In this document: positions 6,905 to 17,828 of the stretch, piece after piece
Position numbering within the stretch: the first letter of the stretch is position 1
How the letters are laid out: each line of letters starts with the position of its first letter
Origin: Clostridiales bacterium
GTDB taxonomy: Bacteria > Bacillota > Clostridia > Tissierellales > Sedimentibacteraceae
NCBI GenBank assembly: GCA_003497505.1
Contig: DNNV01000065.1
Coordinates: forward strand, 1 to 17,828
Reading direction: 5' to 3'
DNA length: 17,828 nucleotides
The notes under the pieces: model-generated
Database searches by the model: none
The model's input: only the letters and a program-made list of their open reading frames with translations
What the model was told of the DNA's origin: nothing
Position numbers and translations under genes: made by a program

Positions 6905-7189
6905 CATATAAAAAAGCATTGACGGAGACAAAAATATCACAATATAACTTCAGAGAGCCGATGTGTGGTGAGAATCGGTGTTATAAGATATAATGATCAC
7001 TCCAGAGCTTCCGAGTCGAAGAAAGTAGATAAGGACGTGTGCCTGCGTTATAAGGATAGAGTTCAAAAAACACATAGTTTTTTCGACTTGAAAGAGGCGA
7101 TATTTTTTTATCGTAAAATAGGGTGGTACCGCGAAAGACCTTTCGTCCCTATATACATCTATATGTATATAGAGACGAGGGGTTTTTTT
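6905..7189 (+). promoter_or_regulatory. T-box riboswitch controlling the ilv genes (probable tRNA-Ile sensor)
   Basis: All landmarks are visible. Stem I: GGAG 6924-6927 with CTCC 7000-7003, ATATC 6934-6938 with GATAT 6987-6991, TATAAC 6943-6948 with GTTATA 6980-6985, AGAGAG 6952-6957, and the apical CCGAT/ATCGG with GATGTGTGGTGAGAATC-type apex. A middle domain follows, bracketed by AGTCGAA (about 7014) and TTCGACT (about 7082). Stem III pairs CGATA with TATCG near 7098-7113. The T-box sequence AGGGTGGTACCGCG is at 7120-7133. The specifier loop's 3' side contains AUC (6996-6998) followed by A, the usual purine, which suggests tRNA-Ile. Uncharged tRNA would pair with the specifier and the T-box bulge, stabilise ATAGGG/CCCTAT and block the terminator, turning on branched-chain amino acid synthesis. 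The T-box call is certain; the Ile assignment is by structure reading only. Confidence 0.95.
7139..7189 (+). terminator. T-box leader terminator
   Basis: The 5' arm (7139 onward, starting CCTTTCGTC) pairs with GACGAGGGG ending at 7182. The helix continues inward through CTATATACAT/ATGTATATAG after one mismatch, giving about 19 bp, a four-base loop and seven U. The first arm also pairs with the T-box antiterminator, so the two structures exclude each other. Confidence 0.93.
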
Positions 7190-7307: not shown

Positions 7308-7354
7308 ATATGCCCTAACCCCGTTTCAAGTTGATATTTCATAAGGAGGATAAT

Positions 7355-7591
7355 ATGTGCAGGACAATAAGCTTTAAAGTATCAATGGGAATGGATTCGG
7401 CAGTGAGGGTTTTGACAACACTGCGAAGGAAACAGTTTGATGTGAGGGAATTCAGCATGGTATCACTTGATAGCGGCAGCTCGGAACTTAAAATCACTTT
7501 GGAAGAAAAGAAAAAAGAAAGCTTCGAACGAGCCATGCTTCAGATGCAGAAGCTGGTTGATGTATATGATGTATCAGAAGCGGTTAATTAA
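7355..7591 (+). CDS. ilvN: Single-ACT acetolactate synthase regulatory subunit (IlvM/IlvN-like)
   Basis: The 78-residue protein is essentially one ACT domain: a beta strand (RTISFKVSM), a helix (SAVRVLTTLRRKQFDV), two strands (FSMVSLDSG and SELKITLEE), a second helix (FERAMLQMQKLVDVYDVSE). It resembles the short E. coli IlvM type more than the ~160-residue IlvN/IlvH, since the C-terminal half of the long type is absent. It should bind the IlvB catalytic subunit, stimulate it and possibly transmit feedback by a branched-chain amino acid. The start is ATG 7355 with AAGGAGG at 7343-7349; an in-frame TTG at 7331 is upstream of that site and rejected. It is the first gene of the T-box-regulated operon, ahead of ilvC and ilvB, so the regulatory subunit precedes the catalytic one. 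The symbol could equally be ilvM. Confidence 0.78.
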   Translation: MCRTISFKVSMGMDSAVRVLTTLRRKQFDVREFSMVSLDSGSSELKITLEEKKKESFERAMLQMQKLVDVYDVSEAVN

Positions 7592-7618
7592 AATCAAAAG
7601 TATTGTCAAAGGACATAA

Positions 7619-8665
<1,047 letters not shown>

Positions 8666-8687
8666 TCTGCATATAATGGAGGAAGCA

Positions 8688-10343
8688 ATGAAATTATCAG
8701 GTTCACAAATAATACTAAGAGTTCTCAGGGAACAAGGTATCGATACCTTGTTCGGTTATCCCGGCGGAGCTGTAATACCTTTCTTTGATGCTCTTTATGA
8801 TGAGCTTGATTATTTCAAGGTATACAGGCCGGCACATGAGCAAAATGGAGTACATGCCGCAGATGGATTTGCAAGAAGCACCGGAAAATTAGGCGTATTT
8901 ATTGCAACATCAGGACCCGGAGCAACAAATACAATTACGGGAATTGCAAATGCATATATGGATTCTGTACCGCTTCTTGTAATATCCGGTCAGGTTGCAA
9001 ACACACTTATAGGAAAAGATTCATTTCAGGAGGTCGACATAACTGGAATGACATTGTCTGTTACAAAGCACAGCTACCTCGTCCGTAGGACTGAGGAGCT
9101 TGAGGATGTAATAAGAGAAGCTATAAATGTTGCCATGAAAGGAAGACCGGGACCGGTCCTTGTGGATATTCCAAAGGATGTATTCGTAAAAACCTGCGAA
9201 TATATAGGGACAAGCGTTGGAAAAGAAGATATGATGCCTTCCGTCTCAGATGATGCTCTTGAATCGGCGGCGGCGCTTATTAACAGTGCCGAGAGACCTG
9301 TTATATATGCCGGAGGTGGAGTCAGGATATCGAAGAATGACGAGCTGCTTCTTCAATTTGCTGAAAAATCCGACATCCCCGTATGCAACAGCTTCATGGG
9401 TCTTGGAACCATACCCAGAAGCCACAGGCTTTCATTAGGCTTTGTGGGAATGCACGGCTCCATGGAAACAAATATGGCTGTTACAAACTGTGATTTGCTG
9501 ATAGCGATAGGAGCAAGATTCAGCGATAGGGTAATAGGAAGTCCGGATAAATTTGCGCCCGGTGCCAAAATAATTCATATAGATGTGGATTTCACAGAGG
9601 TTGATAAAAACACCTATGAAAGTATTCCTCTCATAGGTGAAATGGAGGATACACTTAAAAAACTTTTGGATAAGACAGAGAAAAAGGGCCGAAGCGGCTG
9701 GCTTGATGAAATTATGTCCAGGCAGCAAAAAAACAATATTGAAGGTCAGTTTGTACCTGAAAATATACTTAGGGAAATTAACAAGTGCTACGACAAGGAC
9801 ACTGTTGTTGCAACAGATGTGGGACAGCATCAGATGTGGACCGGACAGTACTGGAATTTTAATAAATCCAATGAATTTATTACCTCAGGCGGTTTAGGAA
9901 CCATGGGATTCGGCATTGGAGCCGCCATAGGTGCCAGGGTTGGAAATCCTGATAAAGAAACAGTGTTAATCACCGGTGACGGAAGCTTTAGAATGAATTG
10001 TGAGGAGCTTGTTACAATCTCAAAATATAAGCTCCCTGTAAAGATAGTTCTGTTCAACAACAATGCATTGGGCATGGTGAGACAATGGCAGAGGATGTTC
10101 AGCAATGCACGATACTCTGAAACGGATAATCCCGATGACGTTGATTATCAGAAGCTCGTCGGAGCATACGGCATAAAGGGTTTTAAGGCTGAAACCATGG
10201 AAGAGCTTCAGGAAGTTCTCTGTGATATCGACGGACTCGACGAACCGATTTTGCTTGAATGCAAAATTGACCGTGACTGCAGCGTCTACCCAATTGTCCC
10301 ACCTGGAAGACCAATAGATGAGCTTATAATGAACGACAGATAA
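8688..10343 (+). CDS. ilvB: Acetolactate synthase, large catalytic subunit
   Basis: This 551-residue ThDP- and FAD-dependent enzyme joins two pyruvates into acetolactate, or pyruvate with 2-oxobutyrate into acetohydroxybutyrate. The catalytic glutamate is E51 in RPAHEQNGVHAADGFAR. The ThDP/Mg motif begins GDGSFRMN at 430 and ends at N457-N459 in FNNNALGMVRQWQ. The central FAD-binding domain is present, including FMGLGTIPRSH and GARFSDRVIG. The presence of FAD-domain motifs and MVRQWQ, and the ilv context, favour biosynthetic AHAS over catabolic AlsS. ATG 8688 is preferred because GGAGG (8678-8682) lies five bases before it; ATG 8676 overlaps that site. It is the last gene of the T-box operon, followed by a bidirectional-looking hairpin. 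No ilvD, ilvA or leu genes are in the window. Confidence 0.96.
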   Translation: MKLSGSQIILRVLREQGIDTLFGYPGGAVIPFFDALYDELDYFKVYRPAHEQNGVHAADGFARSTGKLGVFIATSGPGATNTITGIANAYMDSVPLLVISGQVANTLIGKDSFQEVDITGMTLSVTKHSYLVRRTEELEDVIREAINVAMKGRPGPVLVDIPKDVFVKTCEYIGTSVGKEDMMPSVSDDALESAAALINSAERPVIYAGGGVRISKNDELLLQFAEKSDIPVCNSFMGLGTIPRSHRLSLGFVGMHGSMETNMAVTNCDLLIAIGARFSDRVIGSPDKFAPGAKIIHIDVDFTEVDKNTYESIPLIGEMEDTLKKLLDKTEKKGRSGWLDEIMSRQQKNNIEGQFVPENILREINKCYDKDTVVATDVGQHQMWTGQYWNFNKSNEFITSGGLGTMGFGIGAAIGARVGNPDKETVLITGDGSFRMNCEELVTISKYKLPVKIVLFNNNALGMVRQWQRMFSNARYSETDNPDDVDYQKLVGAYGIKGFKAETMEELQEVLCDIDGLDEPILLECKIDRDCSVYPIVPPGRPIDELIMNDR

Positions 10344-12743: not shown

Positions 12744-13292
12744 ATGAACAATTTATTGTTAAATATAAGCAGCGCATTGAAAAAAGCAAGAATGGAAAAA
12801 GGTCTGACATTAGAAGAAACATCTGCTCTGACAGGGGTGAGCAAGGCTATGCTCGGACAAATTGAAAGAGCTGAGTCAACACCGACCATTTCAACTTTGT
12901 GGAAGATTTCAACCGGTCTTAAAATTTCATTTTCAGAATTTCTGAGCGGAAACCAGAGTGAAAGCAACAGGGTTGATATTGAAGAGCTGGACCCTGTGAA
13001 TGAGTCAGACGGCAGGATGCTGCTGTACAATGTATTCCCCTTCAACCCGCTCACTGGCTTTGAGTATTTTTATATAAAGCTGCTTCCAGGTGCACACCAT
13101 GTTTCCGCACCTCACAAGGATTCAACGGAAGAATATGTGATTGTTACAGAGGGGACGATAGAAGTTGTGATAAATGGAAGCAAGCATATTTTAAAAGCTC
13201 CGTCGGCCATATCCTTTAAGGCTGATGAATACCACGAATACAACAATCCTTATGGCGAGGAGGCTGTATTTCAGAATATAGTCAAATATTAA
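12744..13292 (+). CDS. XRE-family transcriptional regulator with C-terminal cupin domain
   Basis: The 182-residue protein has a helix-turn-helix of the Cro/CI type at about 8-64 (LKKARMEKGLTLEETSALTG, then VSKAMLGQIERAESTPTIST) and a cupin_2 sensor domain at about 105-178. The cupin keeps H124, E129/E130 and H164 as possible metal ligands, with the conserved glycines of PGAHH and TEGTIE. Members of this architecture bind a small metabolite in the cupin and regulate nearby catabolic genes. Its position, codirectional and 96 bp ahead of the glycyl radical enzyme, makes that gene pair its likely target. The ligand is unknown. The ribosome binding site is weak (AGCAGG), which fits low expression of a regulator. 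A palindrome that could be its operator lies just past its stop codon. Confidence 0.9.
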   Translation: MNNLLLNISSALKKARMEKGLTLEETSALTGVSKAMLGQIERAESTPTISTLWKISTGLKISFSEFLSGNQSESNRVDIEELDPVNESDGRMLLYNVFPFNPLTGFEYFYIKLLPGAHHVSAPHKDSTEEYVIVTEGTIEVVINGSKHILKAPSAISFKADEYHEYNNPYGEEAVFQNIVKY

Positions 13293-13388: not shown

Positions 13389-15758
13389 ATGGTAACTGAT
13401 AGAATTGAAAAAATAAGGCAGAATTATATTAATTCAAAACCTGCAATTTCTTATGAAAGAGCGAGGATATGGACGGAATCGCATAAAAAAACTGAAGGGC
13501 AATCAACACCTTTGCGCAGAGCCATAGCTTTCAGAGACACTTGCGAGAAGCTTGATGTGAAGATATTTGACGGTGAGCTCATAGTGGGAGCGACCGGTGA
13601 ATTCAGAAAATGCGGTATATTGACTCCTGAATTTTCTTGGGTATGGGTTGACAGAGAAATGGATAACTTCGATAAAAGAGTTCAGGACCCATATGTTATG
13701 ACGGACGAGCAGCGCGAATATGTAAGAGAAAATATATTTCCGTATTGGAAGGGAAAATCTCTTGAGGAGGCATTTTTGGCTCAGTTACCAAGGGACACCG
13801 CTATAGTTGCCGTTGATACGGGCATTGTTGACAATGACTCCAAGTGGAGGCAGGCAGTGGGAGAGATTACTCCGGATTATGAGGATGTGCTTTTTAAGAA
13901 AGGCTTCGGTGGGATTATCAGAGAGGCAAGGAGACATATTGCAGAGCTCAGGGATATAACCTCAGAAAACATGAAGAAAAAGGAATTTTACGAATCCATA
14001 ATAATAACCTCCGAAGGTATAATCGCCTATGCCAACAGATATGCACGTGAGGCCAGAAGGATGGCAGGTAAGGAAGCAGACGTAAAGAGAAGAAACGAGC
14101 TTTTGAATATAGCCGATATTTGTGAAAGAATTCCTGAAAACCCTCCTGCTACCTTCCATGAAGCAATGCAATTTGTGTGGTTCACTCAGGTGGGAGGAAT
14201 ACTCTCAGAAAATCCGTTGGCTTTGAATGTAGGAAGATTTGACCAGTTTATGTACCCTTATTACAAGAGGGATATGGAAGCAGGTGAAATAACAAGGGAT
14301 GAGGTTCAGGAATTAATAGAAGCACTGTGGCTGAAGCTTTCAGAGTGGGTGTGGACAATATCCGCAAATACTGCGGAATTTTTCGCAGGCTACAACCAGT
14401 TCCAGAATCTCACGGTAGGCGGAAAGACAAGAGACGGAAGAGATGCCACAAATGATTTGTCATATATGGCACTTTTGGCAACGGAAAGAATCAAGACACA
14501 CCAGCCCGGACTCAGCGTGAGAATTCATCAGGACTGCCCAAGAGATTTTCTTGATGCCGTGATGCATTTAGTGAGCAAGGGAACAGGTTTCCCGGCAATT
14601 CACAGCGACCAGGCGGGATACCAGATGCTTATAAATGCGGGCTATGAGCCTGAGGATGCAAGAGACTGGAACAACTGCGGCTGTGTTGTACCCCATTTCA
14701 GAAAGACGGGAGAGTGGACATCGGCTGTAAACATCAATTTCACAGCTGCTCTGGAATTTGCACTGAACAGAGGCTATAGCAGAATAACCGGCTTAAAAAT
14801 AGGTCTGGATGAAAAAAATCCCGCATCATTTGCAAGCTATGAAGAATTGGAGGAAGCTTTTTACAAGCAGTTTGATAATCTGATAGAACATTCCGTAATT
14901 GCTACATTGGTTGCTCAGAATCTTCACAAACAAATGGTGCCCAGACCGTTTTTATCCTCCTGCATTGAAAACTGCATGGATGATGGAGTGGATTTAGTAG
15001 ATGCAGGTGCAAAATACAACTTAGGACCGGTGCTTACAGGTATAGGTCTTGCAGTTACATCAAATTCCCTTGCTGCCATAAGGAAGTTAGTGTTTGAGGA
15101 TAAAGTTGCAGATATGGGAACGGTGATTAAGGCTATTGATGCAAACTGGGAAGGATACGATGAGCTGAGACAGATGGCATTGAATGCTCCGAAGTACGGC
15201 AACGATGATGATTATGTAGACAGCATAGCAATCAAGATGGCGAATCACTATTATAAGGAAGGTCATAAATACAAGGATATTAACGGAAATAATTTCAACA
15301 CGGCATTTATGGGAATATCCAACTATCTTCCTACAGGCAAGGTTGTAGGTGCAACACCCTGCGGAAGAAAGGCAAAGGAGCCACTGTCAGAGGGAGTGTC
15401 TCCATTTGCGGGCTCAGACACCTCTACACCTTTAGCTGCAATGCGCTCTGCCGCAAAGCTGAACCAGGATATACATTCCGGCGGAACGCTACTTAATTTA
15501 AGGCTTAGCGAGGATTTGGTGAGTACTAAGCGAGGACAGGGCAACCTTGGAAATATGGTGCAGACATTTTTTGCATTGGGTGCGTTTCACGTGCAGTTTA
15601 ACACTATTTCAACAGAAACATTGCTTAAGGCTCAGGAGCATCCTGAAGAATACAGGGACCTTCTGGTGAGGGTTGCCGGATATAGCACACAGTTTGTAAA
15701 CCTGTCAAGAAGCATGCAGGATGCCATAATTGCAAGGACGGCTCATAATAAATTTTAG
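13389..15758 (+). CDS. Glycyl radical enzyme of unassigned substrate (PFL-like)
   Basis: The 789-residue protein has the whole GRE architecture: a PFL-type ten-stranded barrel domain (about 10-640) and a C-terminal glycyl radical domain. The radical glycine is G764 in RVAGYS (761-766), followed by a typical QDAIIARTAHN end. Other family landmarks are present: TFHEAMQFVWFTQ, LNVGRFDQFMYPYY, KYGNDDDYVDSI, GATPCGRKAKEPLSEGVSP, HSGGTLLNLRLS. The thiyl-radical loop reads C430-G-C432-V-V-P. Eliminating and decarboxylating GREs (CutC, propanediol/glycerol dehydratase, hydroxyproline dehydratase, arylacetate decarboxylases) have Gly-Cys-x-Glu there, and PFL has Cys-Cys; this protein has neither. It could be an unusual dehydratase or lyase, or an adding enzyme. 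Start: AAGGAGG eight bases upstream. It is followed by its activase 24 bp later. No microcompartment shell gene, proC, hpdC-like small subunit or formate transporter is near. Confidence 0.93.
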   Translation: MVTDRIEKIRQNYINSKPAISYERARIWTESHKKTEGQSTPLRRAIAFRDTCEKLDVKIFDGELIVGATGEFRKCGILTPEFSWVWVDREMDNFDKRVQDPYVMTDEQREYVRENIFPYWKGKSLEEAFLAQLPRDTAIVAVDTGIVDNDSKWRQAVGEITPDYEDVLFKKGFGGIIREARRHIAELRDITSENMKKKEFYESIIITSEGIIAYANRYAREARRMAGKEADVKRRNELLNIADICERIPENPPATFHEAMQFVWFTQVGGILSENPLALNVGRFDQFMYPYYKRDMEAGEITRDEVQELIEALWLKLSEWVWTISANTAEFFAGYNQFQNLTVGGKTRDGRDATNDLSYMALLATERIKTHQPGLSVRIHQDCPRDFLDAVMHLVSKGTGFPAIHSDQAGYQMLINAGYEPEDARDWNNCGCVVPHFRKTGEWTSAVNINFTAALEFALNRGYSRITGLKIGLDEKNPASFASYEELEEAFYKQFDNLIEHSVIATLVAQNLHKQMVPRPFLSSCIENCMDDGVDLVDAGAKYNLGPVLTGIGLAVTSNSLAAIRKLVFEDKVADMGTVIKAIDANWEGYDELRQMALNAPKYGNDDDYVDSIAIKMANHYYKEGHKYKDINGNNFNTAFMGISNYLPTGKVVGATPCGRKAKEPLSEGVSPFAGSDTSTPLAAMRSAAKLNQDIHSGGTLLNLRLSEDLVSTKRGQGNLGNMVQTFFALGAFHVQFNTISTETLLKAQEHPEEYRDLLVRVAGYSTQFVNLSRSMQDAIIARTAHNKF

Positions 15759-15782: not shown

Positions 15783-16688
15783 ATGAACAATTTATACGGT
15801 TTCTTCATGGAGCCTCAGAATTTTTCTGTTAACGACGGAGAAGGTATAAGAACCATAGTTTTCTTTGCCGGTTGTCCCCTGAGGTGCAAATGGTGCGCCA
15901 ATCCCGAAGGGTTAGCTCATGTAGACAGAATGTCGCACAGGTATGAGATGTGCATAGGCTGCGGCAAATGCACCATAATCTGCCCTGAAGGCGTGGGAAA
16001 CAATCTCAATCTGCCGGTGGAAAGAGAAAAGTGTATTTTGTGCGGAAAATGTGAGGATGTTTGTCTCACGGGAAGTAGAAAGAGACTGGTGAAAAAATAT
16101 ACTGTCAGTGAGATTCTTAAAATTCTGGAGCGTCAGGAGATATTCTATAGATACTCTGGAGGCGGGGTTACATTTTCAGGAGGGGAAGCAACACTGCAGC
16201 AGGATGTGCTGAGAGAGCTTGCATACGTGCTGTATGACAGGGCTATAAGCTTAGCTATTGAGACCTCCGGGTATTTTGAGTTTGATGATATTAAGGATAT
16301 ATTGGAAAAGCTTGACCTCATCTTTATAGATATCAAGCACATGGACGATGAAAAGCACAGGCTTTATACCGGCGCGGGCAATGAAAAAATCCTGGCGAAC
16401 ACCCAGCGCCTCAATGAATTAAATGCTGAGGTGATTGTCAGGGTTCCGGTAATAGAGGGTGTGAATGACAGCATCGACAATATTGTCAAAACGGCGAGAT
16501 TTGTAAAGGAAAGCATAAAGAAACCAAAGATGGAGCTTTTGCCCTACCACAGCTTCGGTGATGAAAAATACGAAGCCATGGGCATGGAAAAGCCTTCAAG
16601 AGAATTTAAAAGCCCTTCTCCCGAGGCGTTGGACAAATTAGCCGGGCTTATCCGGGCTGAGGGTGTGAAGATAGTGAGCTATAAATAA
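15783..16688 (+). CDS. Glycyl radical enzyme activating enzyme (radical SAM)
   Basis: The 301-residue radical SAM protein uses S-adenosylmethionine to abstract hydrogen from the glycine of its partner GRE. The SAM cluster motif is C31-x3-C35-x2-C38 (AGCPLRCKWC). The usual activase insertion carries two ferredoxin-type 4Fe-4S sites: C57, C60, C63, C67 and C84, C87, C90, C94. The GGE-type SAM motif is SGGEATLQ after YSGGGVTF, and the second half completes the partial barrel (IETSGYFEFDDI, DIKHMDDEKH, LLPYHSFGDEKYEAMG). PFL's own activase lacks the double-ferredoxin insert, so this supports a non-PFL GRE partner. It lies 24 bp after the GRE gene and shares its transcript; GAGGAAAAG precedes the ATG. 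A strong terminator follows. Confidence 0.95.
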   Translation: MNNLYGFFMEPQNFSVNDGEGIRTIVFFAGCPLRCKWCANPEGLAHVDRMSHRYEMCIGCGKCTIICPEGVGNNLNLPVEREKCILCGKCEDVCLTGSRKRLVKKYTVSEILKILERQEIFYRYSGGGVTFSGGEATLQQDVLRELAYVLYDRAISLAIETSGYFEFDDIKDILEKLDLIFIDIKHMDDEKHRLYTGAGNEKILANTQRLNELNAEVIVRVPVIEGVNDSIDNIVKTARFVKESIKKPKMELLPYHSFGDEKYEAMGMEKPSREFKSPSPEALDKLAGLIRAEGVKIVSYK

Positions 16689-16755: not shown

Positions 16756-17828
16756 TTATTTTACAGTATCCTTTAATTGAAGCATTTCACTGTGAATCTT
16801 TTCTAACTCATGTGGGATATCTATTTGCTGAGGACATTTAGTAATGCATTCTCCGCATTTCTGGCAATTGCCGCCTTGCTCCTTTTCATCCATGAACATG
16901 AAGTAGCTGCGTGTTGCTATGGCTGCATTCTCAGATTTCTTATAATCGTTGTAAACTTCAAATACTCCCGGTATATCAACACCGTACTGGCAGTCCATGC
17001 AGTAGCGGCAGCCTGTACATGGCACGGGCTTGATTTTTCTCAGATCCTCTACAACTGAGTCGATTATTTTTTGTTCGTCATCATTTATGGGCTTTAAATC
17101 CGTAAAGGTGCTTATGTTGTCTTTAAGCTGCTCCATATTTGACATACCGCTTAAAATAACTGCAGTATTGGGAAGAGATGCAACCCATCTCAGTGCCCAT
17201 GAGGCCACGCTTGACTGCGGATTGTAGTCCGTAAAATGCTTCATTGCATGTGGGGCAAAGGAAGCAAGGAAACCTCCTCTTACAGGTTCCATGACAAAGC
17301 ACGGAATATTAAGTTTTTCTAATGTTTCATACATGCTTTTTGCATCATATTCCTCCCAGTCCCAATAATTTATCTGAAGCTGTACAAAGTCCCACTTGTG
17401 GGCGGAAGCAAATTTCTTAAGCACCTCGTTGCTGTCATGAAATGAAAACCCGATATTTTTGATTTTCCCCTCCTGCTTTTTCTTTAAAATAAAATCATAT
17501 AGTTTAAATTTTTCCACAGTTTCAATAGATTTTTCTCTTAACGAATGAAGAAGATAAAAATCAAAATATTCAGTGTTGCATTTTTTCAGCTGCTGGTTAA
17601 AGAGTTCCTCGGCATCCCCTTCCTCCGTAACCTTCCATACAGGAAGCTTGCTGGTTAAGAAGTATGTATCTCTTTTGAATTCAGGGAGCACTTTCCCTAA
17701 AAATATTTCAGATTCTTCATTATGATAATTGTATGCCGTATCAAAATAATTTACTCCATTATTGTAGGCATGGTGAATCAGTTCTCTTGAAGCCTCAAAG
17801 TCTATTTTTCCGTCCTTCACAGGAAAGC
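16756..17828 (-). CDS. Aldo/keto reductase with C-terminal ferredoxin-type domain (N-terminus beyond window)
   Basis: About 356 residues are visible, and the frame stays open through the window edge. The GTG at 17818-17820 is an internal Val, because the upstream codons read Phe-Pro-Val-Lys-Asp-Gly, as in the MRFPxKDG segment of this family; roughly 20 residues are missing. The TIM-barrel part keeps the AKR tetrad: Asp and Tyr in YFDTAYNYHN, Lys in LTSKLP, His in FYLLHSL. The C-terminus has CTGCRYCMDCQYGVDIP and, further on, CQKCGECITKCPQQIDIP, typical of iron-sulfur AKRs of anaerobes. The first cluster has Cys-Gln where Cys-Pro is usual. It reduces or oxidises a small carbonyl or alcohol substrate, unspecified. 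It converges on the glycyl radical enzyme operon across a shared terminator, so it is not cotranscribed with it. Confidence 0.92.
   Translation of the reverse strand, partial: FPVKDGKIDFEASRELIHHAYNNGVNYFDTAYNYHNEESEIFLGKVLPEFKRDTYFLTSKLPVWKVTEEGDAEELFNQQLKKCNTEYFDFYLLHSLREKSIETVEKFKLYDFILKKKQEGKIKNIGFSFHDSNEVLKKFASAHKWDFVQLQINYWDWEEYDAKSMYETLEKLNIPCFVMEPVRGGFLASFAPHAMKHFTDYNPQSSVASWALRWVASLPNTAVILSGMSNMEQLKDNISTFTDLKPINDDEQKIIDSVVEDLRKIKPVPCTGCRYCMDCQYGVDIPGVFEVYNDYKKSENAAIATRSYFMFMDEKEQGGNCQKCGECITKCPQQIDIPHELEKIHSEMLQLKDTVK

Follow-up and report, generated by a model that had tools for sequence, protein, structure and literature searches.

A widespread, apparently unstudied family of glycyl radical enzymes with valine in place of the CXE glutamate

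The window, a stretch of 17,828 nucleotides from a Clostridiales bacterium (assembly GCA_003497505.1, contig DNNV01000065.1), encodes an oxygen-sensitive glycyl radical enzyme (GRE) whose Cys loop reads CGCVVP, with valine at the place of the CXE glutamate. The gene and its key sites are as follows:

13389..15758, + strand: glycyl radical enzyme of the CGCVVP family, 789 amino acids, a complete open reading frame assigned by profile and homologue searches
13863..13865, + strand: codon of E159, an invariant Glu at the HypD His160 position, with a putative acid/base role
14676..14693, + strand: Cys loop C430-G-C432-V433-V434-P435, C432 being the thiyl cysteine by alignment and V434 standing at the CXE glutamate place
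15678..15680, + strand: codon of G764, the glycyl radical site within RVAGYS, Gly in 62/62 aligned family members

Bases 14661-14720 translate to ...DWNNCGCVVPHFRKTGEWTS, and the rechecked codons place C430 at 14676-14678, C432 at 14682-14684, V434 at 14688-14690, P435 at 14691-14693 and G764 at 15678-15680. The protein scores 741.9 bits with the PFL-like model of Pfam and 110.7 bits with Gly_radical (PF01228), and the C-terminal fingerprint RVxG[FWY], including the radical Gly, is present as RVAGYS. The open reading frame, the codons and Pfam thus bear out the original prediction of a CGCVVP loop and an intact RVAGYS in a complete 789-residue GRE.

Regarding the active-site columns, the alignment comprises 62 family members (our own selection from 120 proteins and 80 loci), the best 120 homologues of the protein L095 (the L095 group), three CutC and six HypD sequences, the protein L100, and YbiW and PflD. 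Position 434 is Val in 62/62 family members and Glu in every comparison sequence, namely the L095 group (120/120), CutC (3/3), HypD (6/6), L100, YbiW and PflD, confirming that the dehydratase-type Glu is absent and replaced by Val throughout the family. C432 is likewise present in 62/62, in the column that holds the thiyl Cys in CutC, HypD, YbiW and PflD, so an alignment with the thiyl Cys elsewhere and a Glu two residues on was not obtained. The Cys-Gly-Cys spacing, which had been taken as a novelty, loses that standing: Cys430 occurs in 62/62 family members and also in 119/120 of the L095 group, which is near the solved N-methyl-4-hydroxyproline dehydratases and yet keeps Glu, so the extra cysteine is not special to the CGCVVP enzyme.

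Of 4266 homologues, the best 120 share 81% identity or more with the window GRE, and their loop is DWNNCGCVVPHF in 118 and DWSNCGCVVPHF in two. From a genome scan, 198 relatives were reduced to the best 80, with 62-86% identity to the window GRE, and NCGCVVP was present in 80/80 loci. Seven further non-redundant loci, down to 60% identity, give no test of motif invariance because they were located by the motif itself; together with these and the window, CGCVVP stands in 88/88 loci, in 76 distinct 21-base spellings. The V434 codon is GTT in 26 of the 88 loci, GTA in 24, GTG in 24 and GTC in 14, and it lies one base from a Glu codon in 48/88, with Glu itself in none. As the motif is fixed across the family with all four Val codons in use, V434 is not a local mutation; as far as sequence can tell, the conservation of CGCVVP exceeds chance and the valine is kept by selection. 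In the window genome and 60 relatives, the next GREs are only 40% identical. The motif was seen in 5/398 genomes of an even phylum sample, the window's own counted, and therefore the gene is accessory and patchy. As titled, the hosts are Clostridia, Negativicutes, Alphaproteobacteria, Synergistaceae, spirochaetes and Propionibacteriaceae. The family is widespread and apparently unstudied, a description of a CGCVVP GRE not having been found in the open-access literature searched, which is weak evidence of absence.

Some family members have peculiarities of their own. Intestinibacter bartlettii, the source of the PDB N-methyl-4-hydroxyproline dehydratase, also has a CGCVVP GRE, with an in-frame TGA in the activase (L072:12376-13290), and the GRE of Terrisporobacter petrolearius (L073:10001-12364) has an in-frame TGA at codon 381. 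Other broken copies have a stop (L036), a gap over the Cys loop (L093) or frame breaks (L130, L134 and contig C93 of genome G019), where assembly error and decay are both possible. In the window genome (G000), a second GRE on contig C356 is split into two frames of about 500 amino acids (L003, L004), and contig C16 (L001) has an intact HypD-type GRE.

Among the NCBIfam models, only the generic subfamily PFL2-3 is above its cut-off for the window GRE (684.2 against 678.2), and none of the equivalogs passed (CutC 723.2 of 1050, HpsG 657 of 1000 and HypD 591.1 of 1100 bits). The pyruvate formate-lyase model reached 167.2 of 994.2 bits, and the loop is C-G-C in place of adjacent Cys-Cys. The eliminase CXE is CVV in 62/62 aligned members and, by motif, in 88/88 loci. 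In addition to the HypD score below cut-off, the catalytic Glu436, His160 and Asp339 of HypD are all replaced, and the N-methyl-4-hydroxyproline dehydratases differ by the CGCVET loop, with V for E in the family, and by separate 100/100 clades. Consequently, with the CXE and equivalog tests failed, the enzyme, which has the catalytic equipment of a GRE and the fold of an eliminase, is not filed as an eliminase of any named kind.

The reference GREs of the tree were drawn from the relatives and typed by NCBIfam: L096 (1635 bits) and L097 (1629 bits) as CutC, with L098 assigned to CutC from its loop and tree position, and L099, L101, L102 and L001 as HypD (1421-1556 bits), with L103 and L104 added by similarity. 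L095 and L100 reached no equivalog cut-off. L095 scored 1258 bits against PDB entry 8id1, and proteins of its group stood in for the PDB N-methyl-4-hydroxyproline dehydratase sequences; by their entry titles, 8id1 is the N-methyl-cis-4-hydroxy-L-proline dehydratase of Intestinibacter bartlettii and 8iof is the D counterpart. YbiW and PflD were added from E. coli K-12. In the resulting tree of 36 rows, the CGCVVP family forms one clade (100/100), which joins CutC and the L095 group with a support of 97/99 but without a settled branching order. By this phylogeny, the family is in no clade of known substrate among the GREs compared, and no clade of known substrate also carrying CGCVVP was encountered there. 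The interpretation first given to the loop therefore holds for the missing CXE Glu and for the placement outside clades of known substrate, and fails for the novelty of Cys-Gly-Cys. As for the L095 group itself (P0121-P0240, CGCVET GREs near 8id1), it is large, and those of its listed members that bear names are labelled formate C-acetyltransferase, pyruvate formate-lyase, glycyl radical protein or choline lyase.

Besides the loop, other columns of the pocket are distinctive. Position 159 is Glu in 62/62 family members and in 120/120 of the L095 group, Asp in CutC and His in HypD, L100, YbiW and PflD. As described in the HypD paper (PMC7077986), HypD His160 lies 2.5 angstroms from the CXE Glu, and both are essential. 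E159 is the best candidate for a substitute acid/base, judging by its invariance and alignment, and the earlier idea that the acid/base comes from elsewhere is upheld as a possibility only. E159 did not arise as compensation, since the L095 group has it alongside Glu. S151, W153, N327, H436 and F640 are invariant in the 62 family members and occur in no comparison sequence; R154 is also invariant in the family and is shared with L100. Positions 155/336/337/339 switch as a block, being Q-N-Q-Q in 51/62 and N/G-T-N-E in 11/62, so two specificities may exist in the family. CutC and HypD have Tyr at position 448, where 57/62 family members have Asn; at position 649, the Phe of CutC, HypD, YbiW and the L095 group gives way to Thr in 39, Met in 21 and Ala in 2. 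Phe332 and Phe338 are retained in 62/62; their positions are those of the CutC pocket aromatics, according to the HypD paper (PMC7077986). CutC Y208, E491 and T502 occur in PDB entry titles.

The GRE is accompanied in the window by a putative regulator, an operator-like repeat and an activase:

12744..13292, + strand: XRE helix-turn-helix and cupin regulator, 182 amino acids
13344..13376, + strand: operator-like repeat TGTTAAAACGCACAA...CTAAAACAT in the gap between regulator and GRE, with one mismatch to the consensus
15783..16688, + strand: radical SAM activating enzyme, 301 amino acids, with CX3CX2C (CPLRCKWC) and two ferredoxin-type cysteine clusters

In 88/88 loci, an activase homologue is found no more than 700 bases from the GRE and in the same orientation. 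It is strictly downstream in 84 and was counted as overlapping in four; the three of these that were inspected (L051, L054 and L058) begin at or just inside the GRE end. Homologues of the XRE-cupin regulator occur in 55/88 loci, and in 32 they immediately precede the GRE in the same orientation, while a GntR-family gene directly precedes the GRE in L131 and, by appearance, in L070. Between regulator and GRE lies TGTTATAACR, doubled in several loci about 19 bases apart. With at most one mismatch, it occurs in 28/86 upstream regions, compared to a shuffled mean of 2.45 (maximum 6) and, in a repeat run, 2.28 (maximum 7), counts that are post hoc because the pattern was read off the same regions. 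A search of 14 whole genomes for the exact site YGTTATAACGCAYA gave 11 matches, 10 of them at the GRE module (nine genomes) and one elsewhere in a tenth; the site is absent from 4 of the 14, the window's own included. An operator-like site (TGTTATAACGCACAA) is thus shared in front of many family copies, across genera. Together with the regulator and operator-like sites, the GRE and its adjacent activase resemble a regulon that is complete in itself and under ligand control. No riboswitch was found ahead of the GRE in the seven sources scanned, the five Rfam matches being all elsewhere.

Some loci (L133, L139, L028, L080 and L011) have near the GRE a regulator-like protein of 440-460 amino acids with helix-turn-helix matches, those of L133 and L139 having an additional GGDEF-like match. 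In the window, a T-box leader at 6910-7153 precedes genes of branched-chain amino acid type, named by appearance, at 7331-10343.

Substrate hints come from a few hosts, where a subfamily of M20 hydrolases, whose nearest solved protein is carboxypeptidase G2, lies near the GRE: L019 and L065 (two copies each), L028 and L139, the case being weaker for L011 and marginal for L051. In the first four, the hydrolase and permeases are within about 5 kb of the GRE, a DUF5058-type permease pair standing beside M20 in L019, L028 and L139 and a Gate-domain pair in L065 and L139. The GREs of these hosts are only 64-80% identical to that of the window, so the M20 link is not confined to one lineage. With the L139 M20 protein as query (E<=1e-90), all four genomes gave matches, six in total and each near a GRE, compared to 0/149 phylum genomes; a sister M20 query (E<=1e-50) matched 3/61 relatives, one being the L019 genome. 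This cassette hints at an amino-acid-type substrate. In addition, the gene immediately before the GRE in L080 encodes an amino acid carrier (agcS), L019 carries a D-serine ammonia-lyase besides its M20 copies, and L131 has a 3-hydroxyacyl-CoA-dehydrogenase-type gene directly after the activase.

Considering these features together, the protein would be a working enzyme from a GRE family that is uncharacterised and belongs to the branch of CutC and the N-methyl-4-hydroxyproline dehydratases, acting on an amine- or amino-acid-type substrate, with E159 and/or the substrate moving protons, a tentative reading to which we give slightly less than an even chance. In such an enzyme, the G764 radical would pass to C432, and the C432 thiyl would take a hydrogen atom from the substrate, a small compound of amine or amino-acid type. 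As the CXE carboxylate that could deprotonate a hydroxyl is missing, E159 and/or the amine or carboxylate of the substrate would transfer the proton, a carbon-heteroatom (or C-C) bond would break, and the product would join ordinary metabolism, with no dedicated conserved pathway cluster. The XRE-cupin protein may sense a ligand and control the operon via the TGTTATAAC sites, and in some hosts import may be followed by release of the substrate from an N-acyl or peptide precursor by the carboxypeptidase-G2-like M20 hydrolase.

Several observations weigh against this reading. The tree came with a warning that an artefact of long branches may account for the grouping with CutC, and E159 is also found in the L095 group, where the CXE Glu is kept. 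The confidence of the predicted model is below 50 at 643-648 and low at 321-340, both being pocket segments. The reversed operator pattern matched three times in the same 14 genomes. Regarding the surroundings, most scanned neighbours are housekeeping or generic genes, the M20 cassette occurs in only four of 88 loci (five with the weaker L011), and the window genome (75% complete) has no M20 match at E<=1e-90, nor one at E<=1e-50 when the L019 protein is the query.

The alternative that comes closest is an ordinary CutC-like eliminase that dehydrates or deaminates a hydroxylated small molecule, with E159 simply replacing the CXE Glu; it is possible, though doubtful. The fold and the overall sequence are indeed eliminase-like, with 36-38% identity to CutC, and E159 stands at the place of HypD His160 and of the CutC Asp. 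Still, CXE is called conserved among GRE eliminases in the HypD and IslA papers (PMC7077986, PMC8473560), and the L095 group carries E159 plus the CXE Glu, which argues that E159 normally does another job. Positions 448 and 649 are replaced too, and therefore the pocket is rebuilt.

The substrate may also lack an eliminase-type hydroxyl, as when a free amino acid supplied by the carboxypeptidase-G2-like hydrolase undergoes radical cleavage at a C-N or C-C bond, again with E159 or the substrate moving protons, which we regard as somewhat unlikely. A non-elimination chemistry on an eliminase scaffold, in which an amino acid without a hydroxyl is cleaved at a C-C bond, decarboxylated or rearranged and no hydroxyl-directed base is required, seems quite unlikely; it would suit the Val pair adjoining the thiyl Cys and the amino-acid and peptide cassettes near the GRE in some hosts, and pyruvate formate-lyase and the X-succinate synthases perform C-C chemistry without CXE. 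A non-catalytic or decaying paralogue with lost acid/base function is very improbable, since, despite several visibly broken copies, Val appears held by selection, the radical residues are invariant, the activase adjoins in 88/88 loci and the operator recurs across genera.

For the functional GRE family preferred here, the exchange of Glu for Val suggests a yet undescribed reaction, probably on an amino-acid-like compound, and a coherent Val-holding family across many bacterial groups points to a missing anaerobic reaction. Many copies come with a regulator of a ligand-sensing type and an operator-like site of their own, which allows a direct hunt for the inducer and thereby, probably, for the substrate.

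The remaining neighbours gave no pathway. One further gene of the window was considered:

16756..17820, - strand: aldo/keto reductase with a 4Fe-4S domain, a neighbour of uncertain relevance

Its link is weak, with homologues in 7/81 loci, four of them in one synteny. The recurring ABC ATPases, response regulators, chemoreceptors, ilvA-type genes and Sedimentibacter synteny were judged generic from domain scans or the appearance of the open reading frames. From the look of the adjoining frames, L052 and L084 have their maltose-type ABC cluster near the GRE by chance. The divergent ABC transporter in L066, whose binding protein matches PBP_like_2 and which reads as a tungstate-type system, was likewise put down to chance; the hut genes in L021 were set aside. 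M20 or DUF5058 homologues are not obligate partners, as the window genome and the majority of relatives lack them. In a Synergistaceae genome, the GRE and activase are followed (L067:14110-17200) by a gene for a xanthine/uracil-type permease and by one resembling adenine deaminase, the latter slightly below its cut-off (465.3 against 472.5 bits).

Compared to known systems, the window GRE resembles the N-methyl-cis-4-hydroxy-L-/D-proline dehydratases (8id1, 8iof) in its Cys-Gly-Cys loop, length and overall fold, with 40% identity to L095 and 38% to 8id1. The L095 group shares the equivalents of E159, H405, D407, T444 and F338, but differs in having the CXE Glu (120/120), Arg151, Arg155, Asp448, Phe649 and Ala332. 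CutC is the top NCBIfam equivalog (723 bits), is among the nearest solved structures and shares F332, F338, W443 and T444; meanwhile, its CXE Glu is Val in the family, its Tyr448 and Phe649 are Asn and Thr/Met, and the score is below the 1050 cut-off. HypD has the fold and the thiyl Cys in common, as well as F340, which corresponds to F338 of the family, whereas its E436, H160, D339, Y450, T645 and S334 correspond to V434, E159, Q/N337, N448, I643 and F332 (HypD numbering as in PMC7077986). Finally, pyruvate formate-lyase shares the glycyl radical fold and, like the CGCVVP family, has no CXE Glu.
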